From NCBI RefSeq assembly GCF_006148925.1, contig NZ_VAWB01000001.1:1206001-1270000 (forward strand): 64,000 nt of DNA, given 5' to 3'. Under the pieces are notes generated by a model, which saw only the letters and a program-made list of their open reading frames with translations, was not told the DNA's origin and did no database searches. Made by a program: the position numbers and the translations under genes. Shown here in pieces: positions 34,082 to 41,481 of this stretch. The stretch is from Hyunsoonleella aestuarii. GTDB lineage: Bacteria; Bacteroidota; Bacteroidia; Flavobacteriales; Flavobacteriaceae. Position 1 is the stretch's first letter; the number at the start of each line of letters is the position of its first letter.

Positions 34082-35185
34082 ATGACAGAAACCAATTTGC
34101 TCCACAATTTAGCATTACAGCATGTATCCAATGTTGGAGATATTCTTGCCAAAAGACTCATTGCGCATTGTGGTTCTGCAGAAGCTGTTTTTAAAGAAAA
34201 AAAACAAGCTTTACTCAAAATTGATGGTATCGGAACAATTATTTTAAATGAATTGTTCAAAAAGAGTCATTTTGTTGATGCTGAAAAGGAAATGGATTTT
34301 ATTAATGATAATAAAATAAGCGTTTCGTATTTTCAAGATGATAGTTATCCTGAAAAATTAAAACACTGTATTGATGCACCCATTTTATTGTTTTCTTCTG
34401 GCAATGTTGATCTTAGAAATAAACATATTATTAGTATTGTTGGTACCAGAAAAATAACTTCTAATGGTATTGCCTTCTGTGATGAACTGGTTGAAGCTTT
34501 ATCGCCTTATAATCCTATAATTGTATCTGGTTTTGCCTACGGAACAGATATTACGGCACATAAAGCGGCTATTAAAAATAAACTTCAAACTATTGGGTGT
34601 TTAGCACATGGACTAAATCAAATCTACCCTAAAGTTCATAAAAAGTATATGGTTGAGGTTGAAAAGAATGGAGGTTTTTTTACAGATTTTTGGAGTAGTG
34701 ATAATTTTGATAGGAACAATTTTTTAAAAAGAAACCGAATTATTGCAGGGTTAAGTGAAGCAACTATAGTTATTGAGTCTGCTGAAAAAGGAGGAAGCTT
34801 AGTTACAGCAGATATTGCTAACTCGTATAACAGAGATGTTTTTGCTGTTCCGGGAAGAACTAAAGATAGCCAGAGTGTTGGATGTAATAATTTAATTAAA
34901 CATCAAAAAGCACATATGCTTACCACGCCTTTAGATATTCCATATATATTGAACTGGCAATTGGAAGAAAAAATAAAACCTGTAATACAAAAACAACTTT
35001 TTGTTGAATTAAATGATGTTGAAAAAATAATTTATAATTATTTAAAAGAAAACGAAAAGCAACAATTGGATGTTATTGCTATTAATTGCAATCTGCCAAT
35101 TTTTAAAGTGTCAAGTACTTTATTAAACTTAGAATTAAAGGGAATCGTTAGACCTTTACCGGGCAAACTTTTTGAAGTTATTTAA
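34082..35185 (+). CDS. dprA: DNA processing protein DprA
   Basis: 367 residues. An N-terminal helical/SAM-like region precedes the Rossmann domain, with SIVGTRKITSNG, VSGFAYGTDITAHKAA, GLNQIYPKVHK, and KRNRIIAGLS..VIESAEKGGSLVTAD; a C-terminal winged helix (DNA-binding-like, about 300-367) ends it. DprA loads RecA onto incoming single-stranded DNA during transformation. No com genes are in the window. Convergent with trpS across a 19-bp gap. Confidence 0.96.
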   Translation: MTETNLLHNLALQHVSNVGDILAKRLIAHCGSAEAVFKEKKQALLKIDGIGTIILNELFKKSHFVDAEKEMDFINDNKISVSYFQDDSYPEKLKHCIDAPILLFSSGNVDLRNKHIISIVGTRKITSNGIAFCDELVEALSPYNPIIVSGFAYGTDITAHKAAIKNKLQTIGCLAHGLNQIYPKVHKKYMVEVEKNGGFFTDFWSSDNFDRNNFLKRNRIIAGLSEATIVIESAEKGGSLVTADIANSYNRDVFAVPGRTKDSQSVGCNNLIKHQKAHMLTTPLDIPYILNWQLEEKIKPVIQKQLFVELNDVEKIIYNYLKENEKQQLDVIAINCNLPIFKVSSTLLNLELKGIVRPLPGKLFEVI

Positions 35186-35204: not shown

Positions 35205-36173
35205 TTAATAACCAACCTTAGCTCTAACTCTATTTAAAACTTGCTCAGCTACTAACGTTGCTTTTTCAGCACCTACGGCTAAAGCTTTATCAATCTCAGC
35301 AAGATTATTCATGTAGTAATTGTATTTCTCTCGTTGAGCAGCAAATGTTGAAATAATAAGTTCAAACAAAGCCTGTTTAGCATGACCGTATCCATAGCCT
35401 CCGTTTTCATAATTTGCTTTCATGGTTTCAATTTGCGAATCAGTAGCCAATAACTTATAAATGGCGAAGCAATTACAAGTTTTCCAATCTTTAGGTTCTT
35501 CTAAGGGTGTGCTATCGGTTTGAATACCCATAATTTGCTTGCGCAGTTTTTTATCATCTAAAAATATATCGATGATATTATTTCTACTCTTACTCATTTT
35601 TTCACCATCTGTACCGGGAATAAGCATAGTGCTTTCCTGAATTTTCCCTTCTGGAAGGACAAAAGTCTCACCTACTTTAGCATGGAAACGAGAAGCAACA
35701 TCACGAGTCATTTCTATATGTTGTAATTGATCTTTCCCTACAGGAATAATATTAGCGTCATACAACAATATGTCTGCTGCCATAAGCATGGGATAAGTGA
35801 ATAAGCCAGAGTTTACATCTTCAAGCCTATCAGCTTTATCTTTAAAACTATGTGCCAATGTTAAGCGTTGGTAAGGAAAAAAGCAGCTTAAATACCATGA
35901 TAATTCTGTTACTTGTGGCACATCACTTTGCCTGTAAAATACGGTTTTATCAATATCTAAACCAAAAGCTAACCAAGCGGCGGCTGTAGAATAGGTGTTT
36001 GCACGAAGCACATCAGCATCTTTAATTTGAGTTAAGGTATGAAGATTAGCTATGAACAAATAAGAATCATTTTCTGGGTTTTCAGCCATTTTAATGGCAG
36101 GAATTATAGCTCCTAAAATGTTTCCTAAATGTGGTGTTCCTGTACTTTGTATACCTGTAAGTATGCGTGCCAT
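35205..36173 (-). CDS. trpS: Tryptophanyl-tRNA synthetase
   Basis: 322 residues, class I aminoacyl-tRNA synthetase charging tRNA-Trp. The HIGH-equivalent is TGTPHLGN (11-18) and the KMSKS loop is exactly KMSKS at 192-196. DQLQHIEMTRDVA is the conserved Trp-AMP pocket. Length fits the bacterial form. Likely single-gene transcript from the -7 box at 36191-36198. Confidence 0.97.
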   Translation of the reverse strand: MARILTGIQSTGTPHLGNILGAIIPAIKMAENPENDSYLFIANLHTLTQIKDADVLRANTYSTAAAWLAFGLDIDKTVFYRQSDVPQVTELSWYLSCFFPYQRLTLAHSFKDKADRLEDVNSGLFTYPMLMAADILLYDANIIPVGKDQLQHIEMTRDVASRFHAKVGETFVLPEGKIQESTMLIPGTDGEKMSKSRNNIIDIFLDDKKLRKQIMGIQTDSTPLEEPKDWKTCNCFAIYKLLATDSQIETMKANYENGGYGYGHAKQALFELIISTFAAQREKYNYYMNNLAEIDKALAVGAEKATLVAEQVLNRVRAKVGY

Positions 36174-36564: not shown

Positions 36565-37320
36565 ATGGTATTTTTGGCTGGTATGAGAATTGTAAAATAC
36601 TTTTTTTTAACACTTTACCGTATTTGGTTCTATATATTGGTTGCTCTGCCAATAATAGTTTTATTCCCTATTCTTTTATTGTCTATTTCAAAAGATTCGT
36701 GGTATACATTTTTCTTTAAGTTAGCGCGTTTTTGGGCATATTTTATTTTATTTGGTATGGGATTTAATGTTAAAATTGAAAGGGAGCAAGTACCCGATAA
36801 AAACAAAAGTTATATGTTTATTGCAAACCACACATCTATGGCAGACATAATGCTCATGTTGGTTTCAGTGAAAAATCCTTTTGTATTTGTCGGTAAAAAG
36901 GAACTTACCAAGATTCCATTATTTGGATTTTTTTATAAACGGACCTGTATTTTGGTGGATAGAAGTTCCGAAAAAAGTAGAAAGGCTGTTTTTTTAAGAG
37001 CCCAAAGAAGGTTAGAATCTGGTTTAAGTATATGTATATTTCCGGAAGGAGGTGTACCTGAAGAGCATATAGAATTAGATATTTTTAAAGATGGAGCGTT
37101 TAGGTTGGCTATAAACCATCAAATTCCAATTGTCCCTATAACTTTTGGAGATAATAAAGCACGTTTTTCGTATACATTCTTTAGTGGAGGCCCTGGAAGA
37201 ATGCGCGTAAAAATTCATAAATTTTTATCTACAGAAGGTTTGGTTATTGGAGATACTCGAAAACTTAATGAAGAAGCCAGAACGAGTATATTTAAACAGT
37301 TACAAGAGTTTAATAAATAA
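36565..37320 (+). CDS. 1-acyl-sn-glycerol-3-phosphate acyltransferase family protein
   Basis: 251 residues from the first ATG; MRIVKYFF seven residues in (base 36583) is an equally likely start, since it begins the conserved N-terminus. PlsC-family motifs: NHTSMAD (HX4D) at 88-94, the glycerol-phosphate-binding FPEGG at 159-163, and VPITFGDNK. Two N-terminal hydrophobic helices anchor it to the inner membrane. It acylates lysophosphatidate to phosphatidate, or acts on a related lipid. A strong bidirectional hairpin follows. Confidence 0.9.
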   Translation: MVFLAGMRIVKYFFLTLYRIWFYILVALPIIVLFPILLLSISKDSWYTFFFKLARFWAYFILFGMGFNVKIEREQVPDKNKSYMFIANHTSMADIMLMLVSVKNPFVFVGKKELTKIPLFGFFYKRTCILVDRSSEKSRKAVFLRAQRRLESGLSICIFPEGGVPEEHIELDIFKDGAFRLAINHQIPIVPITFGDNKARFSYTFFSGGPGRMRVKIHKFLSTEGLVIGDTRKLNEEARTSIFKQLQEFNK

Positions 37321-37409: not shown

Positions 37410-38957
37410 CTAAAATTTAATAGCAATACCTGTATAGACGCCTATGAAATAAGGGGTAAAATCTCCAGATGTATTGCTAAATGCATTTATTTGATACTTG
37501 AAAATAGGTTCTAGATTCAAGTCTAATTTTTTCGATATCTCATAATTAATCCCAAGTCCCAGATTTGCACTATAACTTGTTTTATTGAGGTTGGTGGCTT
37601 CTCCTATTAATGTTTTTGAACCGTTGGATTCAGAATAAATTTTGTTCTCATTCAAGAAAAAGGAACTAAAACCTCCAATAAGATTAACCCCCAATTTTTT
37701 TGTTGAAATAGCATATTGTATTTCTAAAGGAATCTCTATATATCCAAACTCCTGATTTATTGAAGTGTTTCCAGTAGTACTTAACAATGTGGAGCCACTA
37801 CTACTTTTAGCACTTATATTTTGGGCGCTTACAAGAGACACATTGCTTGTTGTGCTAATGTTTTGATCTGCGCTTATATTTTGTAATGCAGCAGCGCTAG
37901 GATTAGAACTAATAGATTGAAAAGCAACAACATCATTTGTGTTATAACCAAGAGTTACTCGATTAATGCCTGATCGGATAGTGAGTCTTTTATTGACAGC
38001 GTAACTACCTCTTATGCCATAACTCATATTAAGCTCACCACTTTTAGAGTTTGAATTAAACTGAGGATCAATTGAAGAACCTTCGCCTAAACTGTTAAAA
38101 AAGACAGGCGCAGCGTTTGGGGCAACACTCCACCTGTTCAATTTCTCTTCTTCAATAATATCTTTAGTTTTTTCTAAAGCGTCTTCAATGTTTAATTCGG
38201 TGTTTTCTTTTGAGACATCTTGCGAAGCATTAGAATCTACTTTTTCTTCAGCAGCAACAGCTGTGTTTGTCTCATTTTTGATGTTGTTTAAGATTTCATC
38301 TGTTTTAGATATATCAATGGATGCAATATCAGATGGTATATTATTTAGTTTCGAGTCAATTGGGTTATCTTGAGTGTTGTCAATATTTTCAGCGCTTTTA
38401 GCAATAGCATCTGTTCTTTTATTGATGGTTTCTTTTAGTTTTCCTTTATTTATCTGTGCATTGTCTTCAGATGTTTCAACACTTTTTGTAATAGCCGTTT
38501 TCGATTCTTTTTTTATGATGTTAGAAGAAGATTCGCCACTATTATTTTGGTTATTAACAACATCGGTTTCTTGTTCTGTATTCTTTTCATCAGCTATTAT
38601 GCCATTAGAATTTGGAGCACTTGTTATTTTGATAACTTCTTTTTCTGAAGATGTATTCGTCGTATTAACATCCAGATTGTTTTCTTCTGCGTTTTCTGGT
38701 TTTTGTTCTACTACTCTGTTTTCTGGGATGTTAGATTCATTGTCAGGACTATTAAAATAATTAATACCCACCGTAAGTAAAAGTAATAAAAGAGCGGCAA
38801 CACCAGCATAACGCCACCAAATAGGAATTATACGTCTCTTTTTCTTTTTCTCTTTAAGCTTTGCTTCAATATTACCCCAAACTTTATCGCTAGGGTTTAC
38901 TTCAAAGTCTTTAAACTTCTCTTGAAACAATCTATCTATATGTTTTTTTTCACTCAT
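37410..38957 (-). CDS. Anti-sigma factor fused to an outer-membrane beta-barrel (Dma-like)
   Basis: 515 residues. Residues 1-43 are cytoplasmic and charged (EKKHIDRLFQEKFKDFEVNP, then DKVWGNIEAKL), in the position of an anti-sigma domain. A single membrane helix follows (about 44-68). Residues 70-272 are low-complexity, rich in N, S, E, D, K. Residues 274-515 alternate as beta-strands in the PorT/OMP-barrel style and end in IAIKF, with a terminal Phe as in outer-membrane proteins. A Ser/Asn-rich loop (345-400) repeats NIS. The chain could bridge both membranes, as dual membrane-spanning anti-sigma factors do. It overlaps the sigma gene by 1 bp. Confidence 0.83.
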   Translation of the reverse strand: MSEKKHIDRLFQEKFKDFEVNPSDKVWGNIEAKLKEKKKKRRIIPIWWRYAGVAALLLLLLTVGINYFNSPDNESNIPENRVVEQKPENAEENNLDVNTTNTSSEKEVIKITSAPNSNGIIADEKNTEQETDVVNNQNNSGESSSNIIKKESKTAITKSVETSEDNAQINKGKLKETINKRTDAIAKSAENIDNTQDNPIDSKLNNIPSDIASIDISKTDEILNNIKNETNTAVAAEEKVDSNASQDVSKENTELNIEDALEKTKDIIEEEKLNRWSVAPNAAPVFFNSLGEGSSIDPQFNSNSKSGELNMSYGIRGSYAVNKRLTIRSGINRVTLGYNTNDVVAFQSISSNPSAAALQNISADQNISTTSNVSLVSAQNISAKSSSGSTLLSTTGNTSINQEFGYIEIPLEIQYAISTKKLGVNLIGGFSSFFLNENKIYSESNGSKTLIGEATNLNKTSYSANLGLGINYEISKKLDLNLEPIFKYQINAFSNTSGDFTPYFIGVYTGIAIKF

Positions 38958-39508
38958 TACAAAGACTTTATACTTCGTGTCGTTTTATAATCTTCTATTG
39001 ATTTTTTTAAAGATTGTCTGGCTCGTGCTAAATTAGATTTAGATGTTCCAATGCTAATATTCAGCATCTCTGCAATATTTTTATGTGAATATCCGTCTAG
39101 AACGTAAAGGTTAAACACCAATCTATATCTGTCTGGTAATTGTTGTACCATCTTTAGAAGAAAGTCCAACGAAATATCCTCACCATAAATTTCAATATCC
39201 TCATCTGCAATCTCATTATTATTTACAATTTCAAAAACCTTTTCTTTTCTATAGCGTTGTAAAGCGGTGTTAATTGTAATACGCTTTAGCCAACCTTCAA
39301 ATGATCCTTTGTTTTTGAATTGTTCAATTTTTTCGAAAATTGTTAAAAATGCATCTTGCAAATTATCTTCTGCTTGAGCATAGTTTTTCGAATACTTCAA
39401 GCAAATTGAGAATAGTTTGCTCGAAAAGAGCTTGTATAATTCTCCTTGCGCTTTGGTATCATTAGATTTACAATTTTCTATGAGTTGTTGTAAACTCAAA
39501 TTAAACAC
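38957..39508 (-). CDS. ECF-type RNA polymerase sigma factor
   Basis: 183 residues, sigma-70 family with only regions 2 and 4. Region 2 (about 25-90) has LKYSKNYAQAEDNLQDAFLTIFE and the DNA-melting W in SFEGWLKRITINTAL. Region 4 (about 117-170) is a helix-turn-helix, DRYRLVFNLYVLDGYSHKNIAEMLNIS. Its stop overlaps the start of the anti-sigma/barrel gene (TAATG, 38957), which is the usual arrangement for a sigma and its cognate inhibitor. A 26-bp gap separates it from the lipoprotein gene upstream. Its regulon is unknown but may include this operon. Confidence 0.95.
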   Translation of the reverse strand: MFNLSLQQLIENCKSNDTKAQGELYKLFSSKLFSICLKYSKNYAQAEDNLQDAFLTIFEKIEQFKNKGSFEGWLKRITINTALQRYRKEKVFEIVNNNEIADEDIEIYGEDISLDFLLKMVQQLPDRYRLVFNLYVLDGYSHKNIAEMLNISIGTSKSNLARARQSLKKSIEDYKTTRSIKSL

Positions 39509-39534: not shown

Positions 39535-39945
39535 CTAATCTATTACAGGAACCTCAATTGTTAAATACTGGTTTTCGCCATTGCTGTCTTCACCTTGCCA
39601 AAATTTAAAAATATAGGAGCCATTACTTGTCACAATAAAATTAAAAGTTGCTTCAACCAGCTCATTTTCTAGTTCTTCGCAAGAATTATTTAGGTACTCA
39701 TAATTTATAACTGCGACTGTGCGTTCATTGTTTTCTTTTAAATAATAAAACTCTCTAAACGTATGACAGGTTGATGGCTTAAAATAACTGACGGTTATGG
39801 CGTAAACTTCACCAAGTTCAAATTCATCGGGGATTTCTACAATTTCTATTGGTAACAACTCTAAGTTGAAATCTGGACCATCGTCGCCCACATCACAGGA
39901 AAAAAATAAAAACAGTGCTAAACCAATAACAATAAATCTTTTCAT
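39535..39945 (-). CDS. Small lipoprotein encoded ahead of the ECF sigma gene
   Basis: 136 residues. The signal peptide ends FLFFSC (Cys 17), a lipobox, then an acidic spacer DVGDDGPDF. The mature part is beta-rich with two Cys (STCHTF, NNSCEE) that could form a disulphide. I do not recognise the family firmly. Its place, first gene before the sigma and anti-sigma-barrel genes, and its size and Cys pattern invite comparison with NigD-like lipoproteins, which are sigma targets in the analogous Bacteroides system. That link is inference. Confidence 0.75.
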   Translation of the reverse strand: MKRFIVIGLALFLFFSCDVGDDGPDFNLELLPIEIVEIPDEFELGEVYAITVSYFKPSTCHTFREFYYLKENNERTVAVINYEYLNNSCEELENELVEATFNFIVTSNGSYIFKFWQGEDSNGENQYLTIEVPVID

Positions 39946-40026
39946 ACTAAACTATACAATGCTTTTTAAAAATGTGTTCGCCCTTATAGATGCTAATATT
40001 TCTTAAAGGTTGCGTATTAAAACAAA

Positions 40027-40050
40027 AAAATCCCGATTATTCGGGATTTT
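40027..40050 (-). terminator. Intrinsic terminator of recA
   Basis: AAAATCCCGA-ttat-TCGGGATTTT, a perfect 10-bp stem; on the minus strand it is followed by a seven-T run, 4 bp after the recA stop. Confidence 0.85.
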
Positions 40051-40053
40051 CTT

Positions 40054-41058
40054 TTAAACGTTTTCACCTTTAATGAGTGCTTTAATTTTTTCTTCTAGTT
40101 CGTCCATCAAATCGGGATTTTCTTTAATTATTGACTTAACCGCATCACGACCTTGACCAAGTTTGGTGTCTTGATAACTAAACCAAGAACCGCTTTTCTT
40201 CACGACTTCATGCTCAACGGCAATATCTAATACTTCTCCCACTTTACTCACACCCTCACCATACATAATATCAAATTCTGCCATTTTAAAAGGTGGTGCT
40301 ACTTTGTTTTTTACAACTTTAACTCTTGTTTTGTTTCCTAAAACATTACCACTGCTGTCTTTAATCTGAGTAGATCGTCTTATGTCTAATCTCACAGACG
40401 CATAAAATTTTAAGGCATTACCACCGGTAGTAGTTTCAGGGTTTCCAAACATGACTCCAATTTTTTCACGTAATTGATTAATAAAAATTACAGTACAATT
40501 GGTTTTGCTAATGGAAGCAGTAAGTTTTCTTAAAGCTTGAGACATTAAACGTGCGTGTAATCCCATTTTAGAATCGCCCATTTCGCCTTCAATTTCACTT
40601 TTAGGTGTTAAGGCAGCAACTGAATCGATAACAACAATATCAATAGCACCAGAACGGATTAAATTATCTGCTATCTCTAATGCCTGTTCGCCATTATCGG
40701 GTTGAGAAATAATTAAATTATCAATATCTACACCTAGTTTTTCAGCATAAAATCTATCAAAAGCATGTTCTGCATCAATAAAAGCGGCAATACCGCCAGC
40801 TTTTTGAGCCTCAGCAATAGCATGTAAAGTAAGTGTTGTTTTACCCGACGATTCAGGACCATAAATTTCTATAACACGACCTCTTGGGTAGCCACCAACT
40901 CCTAAGGCAATATCTAACCCTAAAGAACCAGATGAAATAGCATCTACATCTTCAATAGCAGCATCGCTCATTTTCATTACGGTGCCTTTTCCATAGGCTT
41001 TATCTAGCTTGTCCAAAGTAAGCTTAAGCGCTTTTAACTTTGCTTCTTTTTCACTCAT
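40054..41058 (-). CDS. recA: Recombinase RecA
   Basis: 334 residues, normal length. Walker A GPESSGKT at 67-74, Walker B region [11 protein letters not shown], the L1/L2 loops ([30 protein letters not shown]), and KNKVAPPFK are all as expected. It forms the recombination filament and stimulates LexA-type self-cleavage. It is followed by a strong terminator and preceded by a 510-bp gap in which no SOS-box-like sequence was recognised. Confidence 0.98.
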
Positions 41059-41190
41059 TTATATATTTTTTTCTGAAGTTATGCTTGCTAAAATACTATA
41101 ACTTTTATCACAATACAATTTTATCACGCAACCTTTTTCCACAATCTGCATCTACTAATTAAAGTGGGAAAATTTTGCTATGAAAAGGAT

Positions 41191-41283
41191 ATGAAATTTT
41201 TTAAACAGACCATTTTAATAAAAGCATTAGGTGTTTCAGTTACTGTTCTCGTTAATAGTAATTGTAAAGCCGATGGTGGCTAA
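41191..41283 (+). CDS. Possible 30-residue leader-like peptide
   Basis: ATG to TAA encodes a short peptide with a basic start (MKFFKQ), a hydrophobic core (ALGVSVTVLV) and a Cys, like a signal sequence without cargo. An intrinsic terminator follows 47 bp later on the same strand. It may be a real small protein, or part of a small RNA; conservation would decide. Confidence 0.3.
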   Translation: MKFFKQTILIKALGVSVTVLVNSNCKADGG

Positions 41284-41330
41284 ATTCGATAAGAATTTTT
41301 TAAAATAATAGAAATCGAATTAGTCAATAA

Positions 41331-41363
41331 AAAGCGCTCTAAGTTTACTAGAGTGTTTTTTTT
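41331..41363 (+). terminator. Intrinsic terminator in the recA-trhO gap
   Basis: AAAGCGCTCTA-agtttac-TAGAGTGTTTT, an 11-bp stem including two G-T pairs, followed by an eight-T run on the + strand. No annotated + gene precedes it except the 30-residue ORF. Confidence 0.7.
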
Positions 41364-41393
41364 ATGCCGTTTTATTGACTTTGGCGGTTATGT

Positions 41394-41481
41394 GCGCTAG
41401 GGATTGCAGTGTTAGCTTTTGGCGAAGAGATTAACGAGCCATAAATATTAACGTAAAGCGCGACCTAAAAGGATAGCGCCC
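41394..41481. repeat. Intergenic repeat copy A
   Basis: It starts GCGCTAGGGATTGCAGTG and ends AAGCGCGACC..GGATAGCGCC. It shares the GCGnTAGGGrTTG start and the GCGACC/GCCCGA-type end with the copy at 57448-57533. I recall similar elements dispersed between genes in flavobacterial genomes. Confidence 0.45.

Follow-up and report, generated by a model that had tools for sequence, protein, structure and literature searches.

The locus described here lies in a 64,000-nucleotide stretch, hereafter called the window, of the genome (3.14 Mb) of the flavobacterium Hyunsoonleella aestuarii (contig NZ_VAWB01000001.1, positions 1,206,001 to 1,270,000, forward strand). It contains the gene for an extracytoplasmic function (ECF) sigma factor of 183 residues followed by that for a putative anti-sigma factor of 515 residues; the two open reading frames (ORFs) overlap by one base (TAATG), which confirms a claim of an earlier, sequence-only reading of this DNA. 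Together with a preceding lipoprotein gene they form an operon in the order lipoprotein, sigma factor, anti-sigma factor (Table 1). A putative promoter motif, CGCAACC-N15-CATCT, precedes the operon, and a further copy, which is divergent from recA, stands before a candidate small RNA. We consider it likely that these elements together represent a flavobacterial pair of the Dma/Reo type, with a motif read by its sigma factor, a regulon of lipoproteins and a small-RNA arm.

Table 1. Features of the locus (positions in the window)
Feature	Position	Strand	Basis
ECF sigma factor gene, 183 aa, GTG start	38957..39508	-	Pfam; homologous ORF adjacent in 80/80 named loci
Dma-like anti-sigma gene, 515 aa, ATG start	37410..38957	-	Pfam, alignment, AlphaFold2, Foldseek
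Predicted sigma-binding cytoplasmic domain, residues 1-43, two helices	38829..38957	-	Alignments, AlphaFold2; binding inferred
Inner-membrane helix, residues 46-68	38754..38822	-	AlphaFold2 helix; sequence
Mostly disordered periplasmic tether, residues 69-275	38133..38753	-	AlphaFold2; lengths in 81 proteins
Predicted eight-strand outer-membrane barrel, residues 276-515, terminal Phe	37413..38132	-	Pfam, AlphaFold2, Foldseek, 81 proteins
Lipoprotein gene, 136 aa, first gene of operon	39535..39945	-	Present in 78/80 named loci
Predicted sigma promoter of lipoprotein-sigma-Dma operon, CGCAACC-N15-CATCT	39988..40014	-	79-sequence scan
Terminator-like hairpin after recA, just upstream of operon promoter	40024..40053	-	Terminator scan
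Second predicted sigma promoter, divergent from recA	41127..41153	+	Exact copy in 66/80 named loci
Candidate sigma-dependent small RNA	41154..41364	+	Start inferred a few bases inside the span
Four-codon ORF (MKRI) in conserved 5' box; stop overlaps next ATG	41180..41194	+	Sequence
Peptide ORF, 30 aa	41191..41283	+	Relatives in 18 other loci; dN/dS
Predicted intrinsic terminator of small-RNA unit	41332..41366	+	Terminator search; covariation in relatives
plsC-like acyltransferase gene, downstream neighbour	36565-37320		
trpS, downstream neighbour	35205-36173		
dprA, downstream neighbour	34082-35185		

Relatives were taken from several samples. Counts on named relatives refer to the best 80 of at least 506 relatives in a profile scan of named genomes, and they lean towards close kin because the best-scoring ones were taken; with the window these gave 81 proteins and 79 promoter sequences (78 named and the window). 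Among the matches listed in that scan, the nearest named relative is an uncultured Algibacter (68% identity). The family sample comprised 120 Flavobacteriaceae genomes (protein search and motif scan), and a second sample comprised 40 further, more distant loci, 33 of which include the recA region. A phylum-level search matched 67 of 296 genomes, and 12 stretches from more distant groups were taken from it for profile checks.

Pfam identified sigma70 region 2 and region 4_2 domains in the 183-residue protein, which scored 89 bits against the NCBIfam model Sig70_bacteroi1, under the cut-off of 126. In the 515-residue protein the match to OMP_b-brl_2 (residues 295-482) was barely significant (27.3 bits, cut-off 27). 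The AlphaFold2 model of this protein, built with 53 sequences, has two cytoplasmic helices (residues 4-15 and 24-36) ahead of a single membrane helix, and alignments of 29 and 53 sequences gave the conserved pattern KKHIDRLFQE.FKDFE..P...VW..I for this cytoplasmic domain. The tether has a predicted local distance difference test (pLDDT) score below 50 over residues 76-215, 228-255 and 265-270, and because of this disordered stretch the mean over the whole chain is 63. Beyond it, eight long strands run between residues 276 and 513, with a pLDDT of mostly about 83-95 and only 58-77 in the loop region 341-400. Foldseek found resemblance to the barrels of OmpA, Ail, OmpW and NspA (best E 5.7e-06), and a PDB sequence search with the 515-residue protein gave nothing useful. 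The sequence-only reading had predicted a barrel and placed the parts of the protein at residues 1-43, 44-68, 70-272 and 274-515, with a terminal Phe; the structure model does show a barrel, and these boundaries were right within a few residues.

In the 81 proteins, the barrel is 229-246 residues long, rich in invariant columns, and ends in Phe without exception. The tether, from membrane helix to barrel, measures 205 +/- 21 residues (range 163-288); Trp and Cys stand at 0.0% in its composition table, and cysteine is absent from all 81 anti-sigma proteins. Such a tether, constant in length and changing in sequence, is what would be expected of a physical link across the periplasm. The anti-sigma gene is directly preceded by a sigma ORF in all 80 named relatives (79 by script, L063 by eye), and each of these sigma factors is homologous to that of the window (worst E 2e-79). 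The pairing is thus not due to chance, given the 80 adjacent homologous sigma factors and the 81 terminal Phe residues. A Dma homologue was found in 103 of the 120 Flavobacteriaceae genomes. Profiles for the anti-sigma domain (ASD) and the barrel matched proteins outside the order in the phylum-level search, and sigma factor, ASD and barrel occur together in five of the 12 more distant stretches (L252, L256, L257, L259 and L260).

A second pair is present in the same genome (L002, 924-2238), in which the gene for a 187-residue sigma factor overlaps that for a 254-residue protein with a similar N-terminal domain and membrane helix and no barrel match. Sigma factors likewise stand beside an ASD protein without a barrel match in L255, L261 and L262, and in L258 sigma and ASD were found with a non-significant barrel match. 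In view of these barrel-less pairs, the anti-sigma domain looks modular. No sigma match was obtained with the profiles in L253, L254 and L263, and the ASD-profile matches in L253 and L254, with no sigma match beside either protein, are probably spurious.

In all 79 promoter sequences, CGCAACC-N16-ATCT was found between recA, which lies upstream of the operon in 80/80 named loci, and the lipoprotein gene, with one fixed spacing though a range was allowed; the downstream box has the form CATCT in 92% of them. The two named loci without the lipoprotein gene, L080 and L106, have the site directly before the sigma gene. When the second sample was read by eye, 34 of the 40 distant loci had a site that kept the spacing and differed at no more than one base; those failing were L179, L181 (spacing one base shorter), L182, L184, L195 (two mismatches) and L196. 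The 136-residue lipoprotein was modelled as all-beta (AlphaFold2, pLDDT 89), and the model had no Foldseek match at E<=0.001. Weak rimP-like Rfam matches at 39967-40094 (E 0.14 and 0.94) overlap the region of the recA terminator and were considered chance. Across the 120 genomes there were 337 exact matches to CGCAACC-N15-CATCT, compared with 7 for the reversed pattern, and the motif occurs in 97 of the 103 genomes with a Dma homologue and in none of the 17 without one (Fisher p 5e-16).

For the regulon, we analyzed 56 exact sites outside the locus in 16 genomes (51 from 15 other genomes, chosen among those whose sites were listed, and 5 from this genome). At 49 of them a predicted exported product, mostly a small lipoprotein, begins within 60 nucleotides (nt). 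The motif is followed by an ORF passing a strict lipobox rule at 33 sites (including L122), by a signal sequence whose cysteine sits in a non-canonical box at eight, by a 28-residue membrane microprotein at seven (L123, L204, L208, L219, L221, L225 and L239) and by an outer-membrane-protein-like ORF at one (L236). A lipoprotein lies farther away at two (L211, 181 nt; L248, 93 nt), and five sites have no plausible target (L124, L241, L242, L250 and L251), the match in L124, which sits inside an antisense ORF, being taken as chance. At L121 and L244 a same-strand ORF can be read across the motif. The lipobox rule was passed at 29 of the 47 first sites, the two sites of the locus included, as opposed to 4 of 106 genes nearby in those stretches (p 7e-15); of the genes of the window, 3 of 58 passed it. 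Acidic residues after the lipoprotein cysteine mark surface export in related bacteria, and 23 of the 29 lipobox products have at least two of them in the seven positions after the cysteine. Comparative genomics strongly supports a predicted regulon of the sigma factor made up of small exported lipoproteins together with the microprotein and the small RNA.

One recurrent target is a lipoprotein of GSKxCGGPW type (L121, L201, L203, L210, L212, L217 and L224); a second type (L118, L211, L222 and L226) has a weak match to Lipocalin_8 (E 0.017, below the cut-off). The label META-like, to which no Pfam match corresponds, is weak as well, and nothing above the cut-off was found in NCBIfam or Pfam for the peptide described below, the 28-residue microprotein or three other predicted targets. 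The microprotein resembles MKILLIISILIVINLILLVFSVNKKTDP and ends in NKKTDP, NKKTEP or NKRTDP, and in some copies a hairpin and a T-run follow its stop codon. The lipoprotein gene in L122 (from position 1553) is apparently frameshifted after 31 codons, and an intact relative is present in L205.

The unit divergent from recA was analyzed in 67 sequences (66 named loci and the window); the divergent motif with at most one mismatch was also found in 13 of the 33 distant loci whose stretches reach the recA region. A box like GGGAAAATTTTGCTATGAAA comes after the motif in most of the 67 units. An intrinsic terminator was identified by the search rule in 65 units, 63 of these ending 94-275 nt past the motif, and a terminator score of at least 16 was reached in 63/67 units versus 0-1/67 in each of five dinucleotide shuffles. 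The terminator of the window is among the weakest (score 16) and was missed by a generic terminator scan, perhaps because its stem reaches into the T-run; an earlier, cruder search, which chose nearer and weaker hairpins in several units including that of the window, was replaced. In the 30 short units, 97.3% of the terminator stem is paired (shuffles, 84.4%) and the covariation score is 0.465, compared with 0.216, although 32 of 500 shuffles had at least as many pairs with both sides changed. In the 25 long units a six-helix structure is 92.4% paired versus 89.1% (score 0.272 versus 0.212). Both structures were derived from the alignments used to score them, which favours the structures; 12 of the 67 units (L116, omitted for no good reason, and 11 whose length differs or whose ends are doubtful) are in neither alignment. 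Positions 41100-41400 of the window had no Rfam match at E up to 5. The sequence evidence is strong for the divergent unit as a candidate sigma-dependent small RNA, a predicted transcript.

A peptide of 28-30 residues with a CKADGG-like tail is encoded after the motif in 19 loci (the window, 15 named and 3 distant), that of the window being MKFFKQTILIKALGVSVTVLVNSNCKADGG. For 17 distinct 30-codon sequences, the median ratio of nonsynonymous to synonymous substitution rates (dN/dS) is 0.28 (130 of 136 pairs usable), and the third codon positions vary most; therefore, the peptide is probably translated and under purifying selection. Constraint on the RNA may also shape this ORF, since a hairpin overlaps it. 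The peptide is intact in 16 of the 67 units, and the others mostly keep the promoter, the box and the terminator; for this reason we favour a dual-function RNA, that is, a small RNA which in part of the family would also encode a peptide.

Several observations weigh against the whole explanation. The genome has 20 matches to sigma70 region 2, and the assignment of the motif to the sigma factor of the locus therefore rests on position and co-occurrence. The co-occurrence has a confounder, since 14 of the 17 genomes without a Dma homologue are small (<=2.2 Mb), and six of the 103 genomes with one (G004, G026, G048, G077, G103 and G104) have no exact motif; five of these have a copy with one mismatch upstream of the pair (L199, L200, L162, L165 and L176), and G026 (L179) has no site there even with one mismatch. 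In the anti-sigma model, the last barrel strand is the weakest (pLDDT 52-69 over residues 501-515), and in seven of the 12 more distant stretches sigma factor, ASD and barrel were not all found with the profiles. Finally, the operon lipoprotein matches no NigD-named model among the 50 members searched at E<=0.1 in Pfam, which presumably holds models of the NigD family, and its identification as NigD by Pfam was rejected. The many sigma70-type proteins in the genome could mean that the motif is mainly read by another ECF sigma factor, the Dma pair being merely one target, but this is very unlikely, as the site stands before the operon in 79/79 loci and in 34 of the 40 distant ones, and the motif is missing from all 17 sampled genomes without a Dma homologue. 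A different possibility is that the anti-sigma factor is real but its barrel is an anchor assembled once rather than a live sensor of the surface, the signal being a periplasmic one transmitted by cleavage of the tether, as with RseA. In favour of this, the tether is long and its sequence varies, and release of the RseA type is what textbooks give for ECF anti-sigma factors. We regard this as possible but somewhat doubtful, because the barrel is conserved in size and has many invariant columns, and because the response of the Phocaeicola vulgatus system to a toxin is ascribed by its authors, in the available parts of their reports, to envelope or outer-membrane stress (PMC9308784, PMC13114119).

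As for the divergent unit, one possible explanation is that it is a leader or attenuator of trhO rather than an independent small RNA, given its place ahead of trhO and the terminator at its end. YceA is, we assume, a synonym of TrhO. An ECF-type (SM6) start site was placed before the YceA rhodanese gene of Flavobacterium psychrophilum in the accessible text of PMC9723704. However, between the terminator and trhO there is a conserved stretch resembling the housekeeping box TAnnTTTG (consensus as given in the same text, PMC9723704), and the distance from motif to terminator is steady (94-112 nt in the 30 short units), whereas that from motif to trhO varies from 182 to 658 nt (63 units measured). 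On the grounds of this housekeeping-like promoter and the intervening terminator, the simplest form of the idea, in which the divergent promoter just drives trhO, was rejected as an explanation and kept as a rival, and a leader of trhO appears unlikely. Alternatively, the 30-residue peptide could be the sole product of the unit and the RNA itself functionless. The dN/dS of 0.28 agrees with this, yet the promoter, the 5' box and the covarying terminator persist in most of the units that have no intact peptide, and we therefore consider a peptide-only unit quite unlikely.

Under the explanation that we prefer, a Dma/Reo-type pair with its own motif and regulon, the predicted anti-sigma factor would start with the cytoplasmic two-helix domain, cross the inner membrane by its helix and reach an OmpA-like outer-membrane barrel by way of the tether, and its residues 1-43 would hold the ECF sigma factor. 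Damage to the outer membrane or failed assembly of the barrel may free the sigma factor, probably by a pull on the tether or by proteolysis. The freed sigma factor would read the motif, amplify its own operon and turn on the small exported lipoproteins, the 28-residue microprotein and the recA-divergent small RNA. The lipoproteins may re-cover or repair the surface, and the small RNA may lower the translation of selected envelope mRNAs, as the sigma-E small RNAs of E. coli do. The fullest version, in which a two-membrane anti-sigma factor controls through one sigma factor a changing set of surface lipoproteins, and the recA-divergent RNA represses envelope mRNAs and is dual-function, with the peptide lost elsewhere and the RNA kept, seems to us about evenly balanced.

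MicA and RybB are sigma-E-dependent small RNAs of E. coli, and FoxI is an ECF-sigma-dependent small RNA of Fusobacterium. FoxJ of Fusobacterium (PMC11005410) is reported to be a further small RNA of this kind. The predicted RNA would share with all four an ECF-sigma promoter, a short terminated form and a position next to an envelope-stress circuit; it differs in phylum and sequence, in being predicted, and in that part of its family encodes a peptide of about 30 residues. In F. psychrophilum, copies of SM6, an ECF-type motif, stand before a sigma/anti-sigma operon, before the small RNA Rfp11 and before the YceA rhodanese gene (PMC9723704). This resembles our locus in that, downstream of mapped ECF-type starts, a flavobacterium has a small RNA and a YceA/rhodanese gene, and part of the small-RNA story may already be experimentally supported under another name; SM6 differs in its CGT -10 box and targets of the type IX secretion system (PMC9723704).

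The Dma class is described, in the available part of PMC13088901, as restricted to Bacteroidota and as consisting of an ASD, a membrane helix, a disordered tether and a barrel, encoded beside ECF21 sigma factors. Dma1 and Dma2 of Bacteroides thetaiotaomicron have this organization, with a C-terminal barrel and the ECF sigma genes das1 and das2 adjacent (PMC13088901), and all four features were found here, namely the N-terminal domain with a single helix, the tether, the barrel and the adjacent ECF sigma factor. The sequence-only reading had proposed a flavobacterial member of this class; the ECF sigma factor beside the Dma domain order, the predicted barrel and the wide conservation of the pair bear this out in part, the likeness to Dma1 and Dma2 resting on architecture as described in that text and not on sequence comparison (PMC13088901). 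Unlike in Dma/Das of B. thetaiotaomicron, here a lipoprotein gene is first in the operon, beside recA, and nothing ties the locus to vesiculation, the predicted regulon being lipoproteins and a small RNA.

According to two reports on P. vulgatus (PMC9308784, PMC13114119), an anti-sigma factor that carries a barrel in the outer membrane reacts to an antibacterial toxin there and has NigD lipoproteins under its control. In the same reports, the sigma gene goes up 33-fold with the toxin BcpT, and anti-sigma mutants are partly protected and have longer O-antigen. The locus tags given there (nigD 03762, ecfO 03761, reo 03760) imply the order lipoprotein, sigma factor, anti-sigma factor, as here. 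The EcfO-Reo system (P. vulgatus and B. fragilis) is similar in its periplasm-spanning anti-sigma factor with an outer-membrane barrel and in the surface lipoproteins of its regulon, and differs in that the lipoproteins there are NigD, whereas here the lipoprotein has neither a NigD match in Pfam nor a close solved relative.

The Dma-type architecture is therefore known, while the predicted regulon and small-RNA arm appear to be new, as no description of the promoter, the regulon or the small RNA in Flavobacteriaceae was found in the open-access literature. The two-membrane anti-sigma factor is known from gut Bacteroidales, and an equivalent seems to belong to the core of a major environmental family. 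The compact regulon with its fixed promoter offers ready reporters in aerobic bacteria that are easily grown, with which the question of what Dma proteins sense would be testable.

Ten distant loci that include recA and have no operon lipoprotein (L161, L164, L166, L167, L168, L170, L173, L192, L193 and L197) had no recA-divergent motif either, and the operon lipoprotein and the divergent motif may have disappeared or been acquired together. The operon lipoprotein is missing from L184 and L199 too; these stretches exclude the recA region. A different-looking divergent unit, with a hairpin and a T-run in each case, is present in L169, L171, L174, L176, L190 and L191, and most of these six have GGTGGT- and GTGGCC-like boxes. 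The gene order downstream of the operon is unusually stable: the plsC-like acyltransferase gene was found in 68, trpS in 65 and dprA in 60 of the 80 named stretches, some of which are shorter.

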